A stretch of 28,024 bases of DNA from a virus, in the IMG/VR virus record IMGVR_UViG_3300015263_000690, positions 1-28,024 of that record. One strand, 5' to 3'. The notes beneath the pieces are model-generated. The model was given only the letters and a program-made list of their open reading frames with translations. It did not search any database and was not told the DNA's origin. The position numbers and the translations under genes were made by a program. How positions within the stretch are numbered: the first letter of the stretch is position 1; each line of letters begins with the position of its first letter. Below are positions 6,684 to 26,018 of this stretch, piece by piece.

Positions 6684-7153
6684 TTCGCGAACCTCCGAAT
6701 CTGCCAGCCGCGCAACGCGAAGCGATGCCATTGCGGATCGTGGCCGCCCTCCCAGCGTTCGTATTTGCCGGCGCGCAGGAAACCCCATTCCTTGACCCGT
6801 GGGCCATGGATAAAGAGCGTCCAGGCGACCTGCCCGTGATCGATGAGAATGCGGTGGAAGGTCTCGCCGCGGATGACGTTGATGCGCCCCGGATGGTAGT
6901 AGCGCATGCCATCCTCGCGGATCTCGCGGTACTGGCCGCAGAGGATGAGCGATGCCGACCAGCCCCATGGATGATCGTGTAGGCCGCGATCCGGGTCGCT
7001 TGCCACGAAGCGATGCAGGTAGGCGCGCCACTGGCCGAAGCCGCAAATGTAGTAGCGCTCGAGGTAGGGTTCACCGTGCTGACCGCTGATGACGCGCACC
7101 GGCAGGCGGTCGGTCAGCCACCACAGACAGCGGGAGAGGGGGGATGGTTTCAT
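6680..7153 (-). CDS. Cupin-like phage protein, 157 aa
   Basis: The 157-residue protein has the spacing of a single-domain cupin: a strand pair ending ERYYICGF, then HRFVASDPDRGLHDHPWGW (H47, H59, D60, H61), then YYHPGRINVIRGETFHRI (H100) and H116. The HDHPW element with later histidines fits a metal-binding cupin pocket. It starts and ends in ATGA overlaps in the early operon. Cupins range from enzymes to sugar-binding proteins, so the reaction cannot be inferred. A role in modifying nucleotides or host components is conceivable. Confidence 0.68.
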   Translation of the reverse strand: MKPSPLSRCLWWLTDRLPVRVISGQHGEPYLERYYICGFGQWRAYLHRFVASDPDRGLHDHPWGWSASLILCGQYREIREDGMRYYHPGRINVIRGETFHRILIDHGQVAWTLFIHGPRVKEWGFLRAGKYERWEGGHDPQWHRFALRGWQIRRFAK

Positions 7154-8220
7154 AGTGCCAGTCCTTGCTGTGCGGTGCGATGTTTTTGGAGTTCGGCATA
7201 GGCCGGATTAAGTTCGCATCCAATCCAGTGACGACCGAGGGATTGAGCAACCTGTCCGGTAGTCCCGCTGCCGAAGAAGGGGTCAAAAACGATGTCGTCA
7301 GGACGCGAACCGGCGAGTACGCACGGCTCGATCAGGGATGGAGGAAAGGTGGCGAAATGGGCGCCATCGTAGGGTTCGGTGGCGACTGTCCAGACGGAGC
7401 GCCTATTGCGGCGCTCCGTGAAGCAACGAAATGCCTCGCGACCTTTTAATGCATTCGTCTTGCCATTGAATTCGCCGCGCTTTCTGTTTGCCGGAGCACG
7501 CAGCTTTCCTGCACCCTGCTCATTGCGCGGATCGAGTGAATTGGCGCCCGGCGAGCCGTAAGGGCGGCGCGGGTCGTTTGTGACCGAGATCTCTGCAATC
7601 GCGTCGGCGTCGTAGTAATAGCGCTCTGTTTTCGCCAGTAGGAATAGATACTCGTGCGATTTGGTTGGCCGATCAGTGACCGATTCCGGCATCGGATTTG
7701 GTTTATGCCAGATAATGTCGCTACGCAGATACCATCCATCGGTCTGCAAGGCGAAGGCTACGCGCCATGGGATGCCGACCAGGTCTTTTTGCTTCAGTCC
7801 AGCCGGCGGTGGAACCCAAGCGCGCCCAATGGCACCAGCCGCAGCAGCAGCAGCATGAAATCCCGGCGCTAGTTGTGACCCCCTGGCTTTCCGGCACTCC
7901 TGCTCATGTTCAATGCTGCCCTGAAGCGTCGATGTATTGCTCACATGGCCGCCCCTTCCACTGCCTGCATAGCTATCGCCAAGATTCAGCCAGAGCGTGC
8001 CATCGTCAGTAAGCAGATCGCGCACCAGGCTGAAGACCTCGACCATGTTGGCGACGTAGTCCGCCGGCGATGCCTCAAGACCTAATTGCCCCTCGACGCC
8101 ATAATCGCGTAACCCCCAATAAGGCGGGCTTGTGACGCAGGTCTGCACCTTCACGTCGTCAGCGATGAGTTGGCGCATGATGTCGCGACAATCTCCGAAA
8201 ATGCAGGTATCAAGCGCCAT
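7150..8220 (-). CDS. Site-specific DNA methyltransferase (N6-adenine or N4-cytosine, beta-type)
   Basis: The 356-residue protein carries the catalytic motif IV as TSPPYWGLRDYG at residues 30-41 and the SAM-binding motif I as FDPFFGSGTTGQVA near 317-330, with a target-recognition region between them. This order (IV before I) is that of beta-class amino-methyltransferases. SPPY occurs in both N4-cytosine and N6-adenine enzymes, so the base is undecided. There is no restriction endonuclease beside it: it is an orphan that would protect phage DNA from host restriction or mark DNA for regulation. It overlaps the upstream micro-gene by 11 bases. Confidence 0.92.
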   Translation of the reverse strand: MALDTCIFGDCRDIMRQLIADDVKVQTCVTSPPYWGLRDYGVEGQLGLEASPADYVANMVEVFSLVRDLLTDDGTLWLNLGDSYAGSGRGGHVSNTSTLQGSIEHEQECRKARGSQLAPGFHAAAAAAGAIGRAWVPPPAGLKQKDLVGIPWRVAFALQTDGWYLRSDIIWHKPNPMPESVTDRPTKSHEYLFLLAKTERYYYDADAIAEISVTNDPRRPYGSPGANSLDPRNEQGAGKLRAPANRKRGEFNGKTNALKGREAFRCFTERRNRRSVWTVATEPYDGAHFATFPPSLIEPCVLAGSRPDDIVFDPFFGSGTTGQVAQSLGRHWIGCELNPAYAELQKHRTAQQGLAL

Positions 8221-9109: not shown

Positions 9110-9201
9110 GCTGGCCGCCTCATCTTCCAGCAGCCGACGATGGCCCATAGTGCCGTTCCGCAACACATCAGCGTGGCACCGATCAATGCGATTTCAGTCA
9201 T
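9106..9201 (-). CDS. Tiny single-span membrane peptide, 31 aa
   Basis: This short frame starts at the ATG 9201-9199, overlapping the upstream TGA in ATGA, and its own stop overlaps the ATG at 9109 in the same way. The 31 residues (start MTEIALIGATLMCCGTALWA) form one hydrophobic helix with two adjacent cysteines and a basic end (KMRRPA). Without it there would be a 90-base gap in an otherwise gap-free gene chain, which supports it. Function unknown. Confidence 0.58.
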   Translation of the reverse strand: MTEIALIGATLMCCGTALWAIVGCWKMRRPA

Positions 9202-9497
9202 TGCGGTCCTCCATGCATGTGGCCGGCGAAATGCTCGGCGCTGCATCGTGTGAAGCCGTAGCGATAGGGGTCGATGACGAATGCCAGGAATGGCACCCGC
9301 CGTGCGTATTCAGAGCGCTCGTAGAAGCGGCCGAGTTGCTCGAGCAGTGCATCGTCCATCGGGATGAGCGGCGCCAGTTCGGTGACGCTGAGCGTGGCGG
9401 TGGCCAGCTGCTCAATGGATTCCATGATGAATGCCATCTGCGCCTCGCGGGCCATGGCCTGGTAGTGGGCGACTCTCTGCTGCTTGTCGGTTTGCAT
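9198..9497 (-). CDS. Hypothetical protein, 99 aa, first gene after the GCCNN array
   Basis: The ATG at 9497 has a strong AGGAG seven bases upstream, so I reject the longer frame that reads into the repeat array as far as 9782. The 99-residue product is helical in its first half (AHYQAMAREAQMAFIMESIE, then LATATLSVTELAPLIPMDDA) and ends with FLAFVIDPYRYGFTRC and a His-rich tail (HFAGHMHGGPQ). It heads the coupled block of genes running to the integrase. No family recognised. Confidence 0.7.
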   Translation of the reverse strand: MQTDKQQRVAHYQAMAREAQMAFIMESIEQLATATLSVTELAPLIPMDDALLEQLGRFYERSEYARRVPFLAFVIDPYRYGFTRCSAEHFAGHMHGGPQ

Positions 9498-9542
9498 AGG
9501 ATTTCTCCTGATGAATCGGTCACTAATCACAATTCCGTTCCT

Positions 9543-9787
9543 GCCTTGCCATGCCCAGCCCAGCCCAGCCGCGCCATGCCTTGCCTCGCCATGCCTCGCC
9601 TGCCATGCCTGCCTTGCCGCGCCCCGCCCGGCCCGGCCATGCCAGGCCACGCCTGCCTTGCCTTGCCGCGCCCGGCCCGGCCTCGCCGTGCCACGCCGCG
9701 CCTGCCTTGCCTCGCCGGGCCTCGCCGCGCCCTGCCTTGCCCTGCCTGCCTTGCCTCGCCGCGCCGGGCCTGGCCGCGCCATGCCAC
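9543..9787. repeat. Degenerate pentanucleotide array, (GCCNN) about 50 copies
   Basis: From 9543 to 9787 the plus strand reads almost without a break as GCC followed by two variable bases: GCCTT, GCCAT, GCCCA, GCCGC, GCCCG and so on. I count about 50 units, five of them shortened to GCCT. The GCC is invariant and only the two following bases vary, so this is not simple slippage of one unit. All six frames are open across it. In the mRNA of the minus-strand operon it would read as repeated GGC, giving pairs of G every five bases. It lies between two early genes, 46 bases upstream of a strong ribosome site. Confidence 0.92.
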
Positions 9788-9812
9788 ACCAGCACCGCCT
9801 AGCGCCGCCCAG

Positions 9813-10262
9813 TTAGGCAATGTCGAACACCTTGCGCACCCGGTCCGCTTCCGCGAACAGGTTTCGAAGCTCCGGCATGTCTACATATGCAGACTGCAAT
9901 GGCGAGAAGATTTCGAAAAACCTCTCCAGTCTGCAGTCATGCTCCTGTTTGGCCACCGGCGCCACCCGGTGCGTTACCTGCCGCAACGGAGGTGCAGCCG
10001 GCATGCTCGGCTTGACCTGCACCTCGATCCGTTTCGGTGGCGACTGGTCGATGATGACAACGATCTGGATGAGGCGGCGCACGTACTCGATGACAACGCG
10101 CTCGCCGTATTCGGCGAGATGCTTTGCCCAAGCCGAGGCCGGATGATCCTTGGCCCAAGCGACCACGGCCTCCGGCTCAGCGGACGGAATCAAGGCCAGC
10201 TCGCCCTTCATGTCGCGCAGATCGTTATAGCCACGCAGGGAGACATCGAACGCGACCTGCAT
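9813..10262 (-). CDS. Hypothetical protein, 149 aa, partner of the RAMP-like gene
   Basis: The ATG at 10262 lies one base after the stop of the upstream RAMP-like gene, so the two are translated together; the longer frame to 10457 is inside that gene. The protein starts MQVAFDVSLRGYNDLRDMKG and has a hydrophobic core segment (RLIQIVVIIDQS, about residues 63-74). A proline-rich linker (VKPSMPAAPPLRQ) and a helical C-terminal domain (RLERFFEIFSPLQS, later LRNLFAEADRVRKVFDIA) follow. It ends 26 bases before the GCCNN array. No family recognised. Coupling suggests it acts with the upstream protein. Confidence 0.7.
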   Translation of the reverse strand: MQVAFDVSLRGYNDLRDMKGELALIPSAEPEAVVAWAKDHPASAWAKHLAEYGERVVIEYVRRLIQIVVIIDQSPPKRIEVQVKPSMPAAPPLRQVTHRVAPVAKQEHDCRLERFFEIFSPLQSAYVDMPELRNLFAEADRVRKVFDIA

Positions 10263-10263
10263 C

Positions 10264-10893
10264 TCAGCGCTCCAATGCGAACAGGCCCCAACCCATGCCT
10301 GCGCTGTTCTTGCTATCCGGGCGGCCCTCGCCGATGCCAACCTGCAGGCCAACGCGGGCGAGCAGATTGGAAACGTCCTGCGTTGAGAACTGATCGGCAT
10401 CGAAGCGGATGCGCAGTACAGCGGCCCAGTCGTGATAGGCGGCACGCACCGTGACATACGGCTGGCCGGTCTCGACGCGGGCCATGTCCTCCTGCTTGAT
10501 CGGTTCGCCCATGATGCGGATCAGCGGGATCTGCGGTTCGAGCTTGTCGCGACCATCGGCCTCGATGAAAAGCGAGAGTTTGGCTAGCACCATCTTGAAG
10601 CCGACCAGACGGCAGGCGCTGATGAGGGCGGCACGAATGGCGGAAGCGTTGAATCCGTCCCAGCCTTCCTCGGAGATATATCTGGCCTCCTCATAAAGAG
10701 AGTCCGTCGATTTGGCCTCGCGATTTTTCTTTGAACTCGCGCTCTTGCCGGTTTCCATTTTTTGCTTCATCTGCTCTTTGGTCTTGGCGCTGAAGCGATG
10801 AATGACAAGCGGCGAAAGGCCGCGAATCTTGAAAAGCGCCGTCTGGAAATTCGGTTCCTTGATGATTACCGGTGCTGCTTTTGCGATTGCCAT
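10264..10893 (-). CDS. Putative RAMP-like (Cas7-superfamily-like) phage protein, 209 aa
   Basis: The ATG at 10893 has AGGAG six bases upstream and is preferred to a TTG at 10899. The layout resembles RAMP-fold proteins: a first strand ending FKIRGLSPLVIHR (about 20-32), a conserved-looking GFNASAIRAALISACR near 80-95 in the place where RAMPs have their PGSS-[IL]-[KR]-G-[AV]-[LM]-R helix, and a glycine-rich C-terminal loop VGIGEGRPDSKNSAGMGWG. There are no CRISPR genes around it. In phages such a protein could coat or anneal single-stranded nucleic acid. This is a fold-level inference from pattern only. The gene itself is certain, the function is not. Confidence 0.6.
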   Translation of the reverse strand: MAIAKAAPVIIKEPNFQTALFKIRGLSPLVIHRFSAKTKEQMKQKMETGKSASSKKNREAKSTDSLYEEARYISEEGWDGFNASAIRAALISACRLVGFKMVLAKLSLFIEADGRDKLEPQIPLIRIMGEPIKQEDMARVETGQPYVTVRAAYHDWAAVLRIRFDADQFSTQDVSNLLARVGLQVGIGEGRPDSKNSAGMGWGLFALER

Positions 10894-10955
10894 TGACAAC
10901 TCCTGTTTCCTGATGCGCTCTGTTGGGACGGTCGGGCGCGGTCACCGTTTGTAAC

Positions 10956-24818: not shown

Positions 24819-25320
24819 CATCGTGACCGACATCGAGAAATTCAAGAAGGGATGGCGTGGCGGCCTGCCGGAGACCCCGTGCGGCTATGGCTCTACGCTA
24901 GAGGCCACCAAGGCCCAGCGCGAGTGGATTCCGAAGATCATCAAGAAGTACCACATCAAGACCATCGTGGACGTCGGTGCTGGCGACCTGCATTGGTTCC
25001 CGCAGATGAAACTGCCGCGCAGCGTGCGGGTGCTGCATTGCGACGTCTACCCGCGCACGCCGGAGGTCGTCGAGTTCGACCTGCTCAAGGAAGCGCCGCC
25101 GCCGGCCGATATGATCCTGTGCCTGTGGGTGCTGAACCATTTCGACATCGAGTCATGCCGGCTGGCGCTCGCGAACCTCAAGGCGAGCGGCTCGAAGTAC
25201 CTTATGATGACAGACCGGCCGGTGTGGCATCACGAGCAGCCGCCGGAAATCGTCATGGAGCACGTCGAGGAACTGAAGCTGAACCAGAAGGGCGACCGGA
25301 TCATTCTGTGCCCGCTTTAA
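24811..25320 (+). CDS. SAM-dependent methyltransferase (class I)
   Basis: GGAG precedes the ATG. The 169-residue protein has the class I fold in brief form: motif I TIVDVGAGDLHWFP (about residues 51-64), an acidic end of strand 2 in VLHCDVYPR (about 75-83), FDLLKEAPPPADMILCLWVL with motif IV, and a late NLKASGSKYLMMTDRP. It lacks DNA methyltransferase motifs (no PPY or PC), so the target is more likely a sugar, protein or small molecule. Its place inside a glycosyltransferase-like cassette suggests methylation of a glycan. It overlaps its neighbours by 8 and 13 bases. Confidence 0.8.
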   Translation: MSDIVTDIEKFKKGWRGGLPETPCGYGSTLEATKAQREWIPKIIKKYHIKTIVDVGAGDLHWFPQMKLPRSVRVLHCDVYPRTPEVVEFDLLKEAPPPADMILCLWVLNHFDIESCRLALANLKASGSKYLMMTDRPVWHHEQPPEIVMEHVEELKLNQKGDRIILCPL

Positions 25321-26018
25321 CGGTCTGGGCAGTCTGCGTCGGACCAAAATATCACCCTGCTTACGTGTTCGCCCTGCGCGACGCAGTCGCCGAGCACCTG
25401 ACGGTCCCGCACGAGTTCAAGTGCATCACGGATCGGCAGCTACCAGGAGTCAACACCGTCGCCCCGGTGCTGGATTACCCCGGCTGGTGGTCGAAGCTGA
25501 ACCTGTTCGCGCTCGCGACCGGCCCGAGCCTGTATTTCGACCTCGATGTGGCCATCGTCGGCAACCTCGATTATCTGGCCGACTACGCGGCGCATGAGTT
25601 CGCGGCGCCCCCCAACTGGGCGCGCTCCGGCCACGGAGGTATTCAATCGTCGGTGATGGCGTGGCGCGGCAACTGGACCGCGCCGATTGACAGGATTCGC
25701 CACGAGTGGCCGCAGCGGGAGACCGACAGCGACGGTTATACGATGCTCGGCGGCAAGAAGTTCTGGGGCGATCAGGAATATCTCTGGGACCTGCTCGGTG
25801 ACCGGTGGGTGCGGATCCCGCGTGTGTGCAGCTACAAGTACCATGTCGCGCCGCAGCAGAAAATTCCAGACGACGCCAGCGTGGTGGTGTTTCACGGGGA
25901 ACCGAAAAACCTGGACGTGAAGGACGAATGCATATTGCCTTTCACTGCAACCCTGCGCAGGCACATCAGCGCGAGCACGCCGAATGGCTTGCCGCTGGAC
26001 TCAAACGCCACGGCCTGA
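25308..26018 (+). CDS. GT-A-type glycosyltransferase
   Basis: The GTG at 25308 overlaps the end of the methyltransferase gene; the longer frame to 24852 is a shadow. The 236-residue protein looks like a GT-A fold enzyme: VCVGPKYHPAYVFALRDAV at the start, then PGWWSKLNLFALATGPSLYF and YFDLDVAIVGNLDYL with a DxD motif (D-L-D, about residues 77-79) for metal and nucleotide-sugar binding. A late WGDQEYLWDLL and FHGEPKN follow, as in GT8-like enzymes. Substrate unknown. It overlaps the next gene by 91 bases. Confidence 0.8.
   Translation: MPALTVWAVCVGPKYHPAYVFALRDAVAEHLTVPHEFKCITDRQLPGVNTVAPVLDYPGWWSKLNLFALATGPSLYFDLDVAIVGNLDYLADYAAHEFAAPPNWARSGHGGIQSSVMAWRGNWTAPIDRIRHEWPQRETDSDGYTMLGGKKFWGDQEYLWDLLGDRWVRIPRVCSYKYHVAPQQKIPDDASVVVFHGEPKNLDVKDECILPFTATLRRHISASTPNGLPLDSNATA

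Follow-up and report, generated by a model that had tools for sequence, protein, structure and literature searches.

What is a run of some 50 five-base units, constant at three positions and variable at two, doing in the middle of a phage operon? The run occupies positions 9543–9787 (245 bp) of the window, by which is meant the whole stretch of 28,024 nucleotides analysed (IMG/VR virus record IMGVR_UViG_3300015263_000690). A preliminary description, made from the letters alone, knew of no named element that matched it and left several roles open, from regulation of the operon to recombination. We describe here the array, the genes beside it, the order within it and the possible targets of the RNA that it encodes.

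The array and its sequence

The count of about 50 GCCNN units given in the preliminary description was accurate. There are 50 GCC starts, with 44 spacings of exactly five bases and five of 4 bases (at 9598, 9607, 9651, 9700 and 9744), and the minus strand, from which the operon is transcribed, reads the array as (NNGGC)n. Runs of five consecutive GCCNN units occur 28 times within the array and never in the rest of the window, against an expectation of 0.01 from 100 dinucleotide shuffles. The NN pairs draw on 13 of the 16 possible dinucleotides (3.35 bits), and adjacent pairs are identical in 5 of 39 cases compared with 11% expected. As neighbouring pairs are no more alike than chance would make them, the array carries no signature of slippage, and the earlier view that simple slippage is unlikely and that GGC is selected every five bases with NN left free is supported. 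All six reading frames are open across the stretch, as had been noticed, and a non-coding RNA is the supported reading.

Searches with the array itself recovered nothing: BLAST against phages gave no match, and neither the window nor eight relatives matched an Rfam family, hammerhead ribozymes included, at gathering score. The identical direct repeats of 20–50 nt with unique spacers that mark a CRISPR array are not present in the window array, which has a period of 5 with varying NN; the best longer periods, 44–49, reach a 73–74% match. An assembly error, one of the earlier concerns, is unlikely because a separate contig (L132) carries an identical copy. That copy lies inside an 11,484-bp stretch 99.99% identical to the window, and the sole difference across it, a one-base gap, falls outside the array. 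The two genomes part at a mosaic junction just downstream of the array (window 9411–9446): to its right, through the array and vipr as far as 20894, they are 99.99% identical, and to its left 86–95%, with gaps.

The vipr gene and its neighbours

The identity of the array follows its company. On the minus strand at 10264–10893 lies a gene for a 209-aa RAMP-family protein, with an ATG at 10893 and an alternative start, TTG, at 10899. The product belongs to phrog_4652, a family of unknown function. A profile built from the window protein and 80 homologues matches PDB entry 36pp_D, ‘SUSP1 Vipr protein’, with E=5.9e-41, far ahead of all else, and the same entry is the only match up to E=10 when the window sequence is searched singly (E=0.0057). 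The AlphaFold model (pLDDT 94.3) finds its best structural matches among the Csm3/Cas7 RAMPs, with Z 11.4 and 3.3 A over 148 residues, so the label ‘RAMP-like’ in the preliminary description was apt. In the homologue alignment, the glycine-rich loop AGxxxGxGxxRP...GxF is nearly invariant; G186 and G203 are invariant, and G182, G188 and R191 are conserved in at least 90%. The gene product is a Vipr protein with the Cas7/Csm3 RAMP fold, and its 209 aa agree with the minimal RAMP homologue (~20 kD) by which VIPR systems are recognised.

VIPR is a phage RNA-guided DNA-recognition system known since 2026 from a bioRxiv preprint, version 2 (PMC13142463), and a literature search found VIPR terms in no other paper. 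According to the preprint, the system has three parts: Vipr, which is a small RAMP protein, an accessory gene named vap, and vrRNAs built from repeated YNNGG units. Vipr is further characterised by a glycine-rich loop and a thumb domain that touches the guide RNA, and the vrRNA by an invariable structured 3' tail. Vipr binds the vrRNA, whose NN pairs recognise DNA with one skipped base after each pair, and the complex binds DNA and silences transcription; the targets are rival phages and satellites. The preprint gives 9–16 repeats for each vrRNA, mentions staggered arrays with overlapping vrRNAs and describes experiments centred on Escherichia and Pseudomonas phages.

The accessory gene of the window is probably the one at 9813–10262 (minus strand, 149 aa), whose ATG comes just after the vipr stop codon. 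In 50 of 62 relatives, the gene after vipr, whether adjoining it or with an array in between, encodes a ~150-aa protein of one family (phrog_15946 in the two members scanned), and the window product shows a weak, full-length collinear match to this family (E 5e-4 in a two-protein search). The profile of this family did not match SUSP1 vap1. The model of the accessory protein is confident in its helical parts only, and a fold search with this poor model gave no match, so that the protein may still have a known fold. Beyond the array, the next gene of the operon (9198–9497, minus strand) encodes 99 aa with no family match and has AGGAG before its start.

Other genes of the window deserve brief mention. 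The same leftward run includes an intact N6/N4 DNA methyltransferase at 7150–8220 (PF01555, E 8.6e-50). The product of 6680–7153 matches phrog_4786 (E 3.5e-34), which bears the name cysteine dioxygenase and is unusual at such a place, and a glycosyltransferase-like gene (phrog_1962) lies downstream of the head genes at 24852–26018. The nearest relatives of the terminase, at ~45%, are those of Marinobacter and Burkholderia phages.

The partnership of array and vipr was examined from both sides. Of the 120 contigs listed by a DNA scan for ten consecutive GCCNN units, regardless of their proteins, 88 encode a Vipr according to an iterated profile search. Conversely, when 62 contigs were chosen by the Vipr protein alone, 44 had an array within 1.5 kb of vipr; 85 arrays lie in the 211 kb around vipr, whereas the other 579 kb contain none, and chains on the opposite strand were seen only twice. 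Some relatives have arrays upstream of vipr or on both sides of it. The proposed link to the RAMP-like gene pair therefore holds in scores of other phage contigs. In the remaining 18 of the 62 contigs chosen by protein, the detector used here found no array.

Like the Escherichia phage SUSP1, which has a type II system (PMC13142463), the window has a Vipr RAMP homologue with a probable accessory gene right after it and a non-coding tandem GGY/NN tract beside these genes on the same strand, the counterpart of the YNNGG tracts compared in L193. It differs in having a single, continuous array based on GGC and divided by AGGC steps, whereas SUSP1 has separate, mostly GGT, vrRNAs each with a structured 3' tail, and in having an accessory family that does not match vap1. 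The backbone proteins of class 1 CRISPR-Cas systems (Cas7/Csm3) share with Vipr the RAMP fold and glycine-rich loop, but there is no direct-repeat/spacer array in the window, where guide code is interleaved with scaffold every five bases. The earlier statement that no named element matches must be withdrawn, as the array matches the vrRNA arrays of VIPR that the preprint describes. The locus is a new member of this kind, and we are highly confident that it is the VIPR system of a temperate tailed phage with guide modules arranged head to tail.

Guide modules and their turnover

The five short spacings had been taken as breaks in the register. The count was right, but the breaks are not random: all five read GGC-A-GGC in the RNA sense, and four of the five recur at 44–49 bp. 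They are delimiters, a second ordered feature that cuts the array into modules. Read along the minus strand, the guide array of 50 NNGGC units opens with module 1 (9751–9790; NN in RNA order GT AT GC CA CC GC GA AA), which is followed by the delimiter GGCAGGC at 9744–9750 with its 4-base step and single A. Module 2 (9707–9743; AG AA AG GC GA CC GA AA) and a delimiter at 9700–9706 come next, and then module 3 (9658–9699; GC GT AC GA CG CG GC AA AA), a delimiter at 9651–9657 and module 4 (9614–9650; GT CT AT CG CG GG GC AA). Two delimiters sharing a GGC then flank a one-unit remnant (9598–9613; GGCAGGC AT GGCAGGC), and module 5 (9551–9597; GA AT GA AA AT GC TG TG TG AT AA) precedes the 3' end of the array at 9540–9550, where GGCAAGGCAGG is the last delimiter, after which comes the leader of the next gene. 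The total is five modules, of 8, 8, 9, 8 and 11 units between delimiters, and one single-unit remnant.

Relatives follow the same plan of a constant leader, modules separated by GGCAGGC and a constant or hairpin trailer. The single base of the 4-base step is A in 163 of their 176 steps, the distance from step to step is most often 7–11 units, and one-unit remnants are seen again. Some (L060, L021 and L085) have a longer step, GGCATCGCAGGC or GGCACCGCAGGC. The unit before the step is AA in every window module, mostly AT in mycobacteriophages and more variable in other relatives; this last unit may belong to the delimiter. As for the 3' tail, the window has the constant GGCAGGC delimiter and no convincing conserved structured tail, and one relative, L116, ends its array in the same way; hairpin tails are found in the mycobacteriophages and in the L178 clade. 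Downstream of both arrays in L178–L191 are trailers ending in hairpins, with stems GTGAT/ATCAC in one and GACCT/AGGTC in the other, followed by TATAAAAGG.

The closest parallel among isolated phages is provided by the Cheoctovirus mycobacteriophages Saal, Donkeykong and Quico, which have a Vipr homologue (33% identity) and AGGC-delimited modules of 8–11 units. Their loci differ from that of the window in placing the array just upstream of vipr, in their constant leader and strong terminal hairpin, and in having a known host. The Vipr homologues of this group (Saal gp51 and kin) are annotated ‘hypothetical protein’, with the guide array in the preceding gap, and gp52, which comes after, may be an accessory gene. 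Mycobacterium phages with such loci (L125 and L196–L203) are Saal, Donkeykong, Brocalys, Clifton, Mattes, BobaPhett, Quico, ByChance and Zizzle. Unannotated Vipr loci with AGGC-delimited arrays are also present in Cyanophage Cy-LDV1 (L123, 4653–5571), in a Rhodoplanes serenus plasmid carrying phage genes (L124, 5105–5367) and in the actinophage Ecliptus of Gordonia (L126, 3605–3794).

Comparison of the variable bases between copies, which the preliminary description had recommended, found that NN pairs differ by whole modules. In the L178–L192 clade, the flanks are conserved but the guides are not. The vipr gene is identical in L178, L180 and L181, which have four to six modules in common; array 1 of L189 has module 1 of L186 (bar one base in the last unit) and module 2 of L183, and L184 and L188, with vipr genes 98.7% identical, have no module in common. 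Phages whose vipr is identical or 94–99% identical may thus have all, some or none of their modules in common, with whole-module exchange between constant flanks, and turnover of guide modules is evident in the mycobacteriophages as well. Since guides differ module-wise between the constant flanks of near-identical phages, the modules are the units of exchange.

How such an array is divided into guides can be read in more than one way. The AGGC-delimited arrays are either what the preprint (PMC13142463) calls ‘staggered arrays with overlapping vrRNAs’ or a form not yet reported. The more novel possibility, to which we give slightly less than even odds, is that they are an architecture distinct within VIPR. 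Guides of ~7–10 units each would form a compact, CRISPR-like string in which one 4-base step would act both as the 3' handle of the guide and as a cutting or phasing site, and guides would be gained, lost and swapped as whole modules. Cleavage would then occur at the delimiter, the AGGC step ending one guide and starting the next. A weaker contender, for which the chances seem rather low, is the same VIPR system with overlapping guides, each vrRNA spanning one module and running on into the next so that the 4-base step lies inside the guide. The preprint speaks for overlap, as it reports staggered arrays and 9–16 repeats per vrRNA, more than in most window modules, which with about 7–11 units fall at the low end of that range (PMC13142463). 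Overlap is, however, hard to reconcile with the gain, loss and exchange of whole modules at the delimiter, or with the Quico target described below, which covers exactly nine units of one module and has its mismatch next to the delimiter.

Possible targets and activity of the system

If the window copy works as the preprint describes for VIPR, the leftward operon would give rise to Vipr and its accessory protein, and also to an RNA in which some five guide modules follow one another head to tail. The GGC triplets would form the scaffold gripped by Vipr subunits and the NN pairs the code, a picture in line with the protein-binding platform suggested earlier, and the fixed GGC-A-GGC step, standing in for the structured tail of SUSP1, would be the boundary at which one guide finishes with its 3' end and another begins. 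Loaded Vipr would find double-stranded DNA that reads NNxNNxNNx, with x mostly on codon wobble bases, and its binding would block transcription of a competing phage or prophage. By analogy with the preprint (PMC13142463), the window system is expected to bind RNA and DNA and to repress, and it is presumably active against phages or prophages of the host that it occupies.

When IMG/VR was scanned for exact NNx matches, no convincing target was found for the window modules covered (2–5): modules 2 and 5 had no site, and modules 3 and 4 only chance-like ones. The candidates for module 3 were two distinct sites, one of them in frame (L130), and that for module 4 was a single site in a phage whose structural proteins are long; all were judged to be chance. 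Scans with a module from the L183 clade, and with another from Quico, gave none, and no self-targeting of the window was found beyond that in shuffles. In a bulk test of the skip rule (389 modules against 1.9 Mb of fetched loci), a skip of 1 was enriched about twofold; guides shuffled in order did equally well, and the signal was rejected as codon periodicity. As the window modules gave no target and the bulk test no signal, targets were sought in isolated phages of the same plan, with 15 guides scanned against 13 mycobacteriophage genomes (0.72 Mb).

One of the 15 guides, the Quico guide AA TT AT TT TT AT GC CC TC, has an exact 18/18 site with a one-base skip in phage Che8, and no exact site in the 13 genomes at skips of 0, 2 or 3. 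When the guides were shuffled in order, 2 of 3298 sets gave any exact site, a frequency of about 6e-4. The target falls within Che8 gp14, a gene annotated in close relatives as the tape measure; the strand that reads as the guide is the non-coding one, and the skipped bases all fall on third positions of codons. Four compared alleles of the target stretch, that of Che8 and three others, differ at skipped bases only, and the site is absent from Quico itself and from the other 11 genomes. The match covers nine units of one module exactly, with a mismatch on the unit adjoining the delimiter. A target obeying the one-base-skip rule is therefore seen in a relative of the window system, where this match, to be read as a single hit, fits the published rule in every respect.

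Could the window locus be a decayed one, in which vipr and the array are hitch-hiking remnants and targeting has been lost? This is improbable. The diverged accessory protein, the one-unit remnant and the failure to find targets for modules 2–5 in IMG/VR would suit decay, but vipr is intact and keeps its near-invariant residues, all 50 units keep the GGC scaffold, in contrast to relatives such as L142 and L158 with their many broken units, and IMG/VR is a poor sample of the rivals of the host. A cis-acting RNA element, whether G-quadruplex or protein platform, tuning expression of the operon is far less probable still. In its favour, the array is flanked within the operon by the accessory gene on one side and the following gene on the other, paired G at five-base intervals might in theory fold into two-tier quadruplexes, and the predicted folding of the strand is a little better than that of shuffled sequences (z -2.2); however, the arrays of relatives also lie upstream of vipr or on both sides, and a cis element has no need of whole-module NN change between near-identical phages. 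Nothing found points to the quadruplexes, the control of the operon's own genes or the role in recombination that had been floated earlier. A neutral microsatellite or recombination hot spot is scarcely credible in spite of the nearby junction with L132 (about 9411–9446), given that identical neighbouring units are not in excess, dozens of contigs have the array close to vipr and on a single strand, and the scaffold is kept while NN diverges.

Read as a VIPR system, the locus has consequences beyond this phage. VIPR rests on one preprint a few months old, and it was met here independently, from raw sequence and in a different phage. The simple anatomy of guide modules marked by AGGC makes the guides readable from DNA by anyone, and their module-wise turnover raises the question of how new guides are acquired without a known adaptation protein. 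As isolated mycobacteriophages whose host is known share the plan, and a target is predicted in the tape-measure gene of a rival, natural targeting can be tested directly in Mycobacterium smegmatis.
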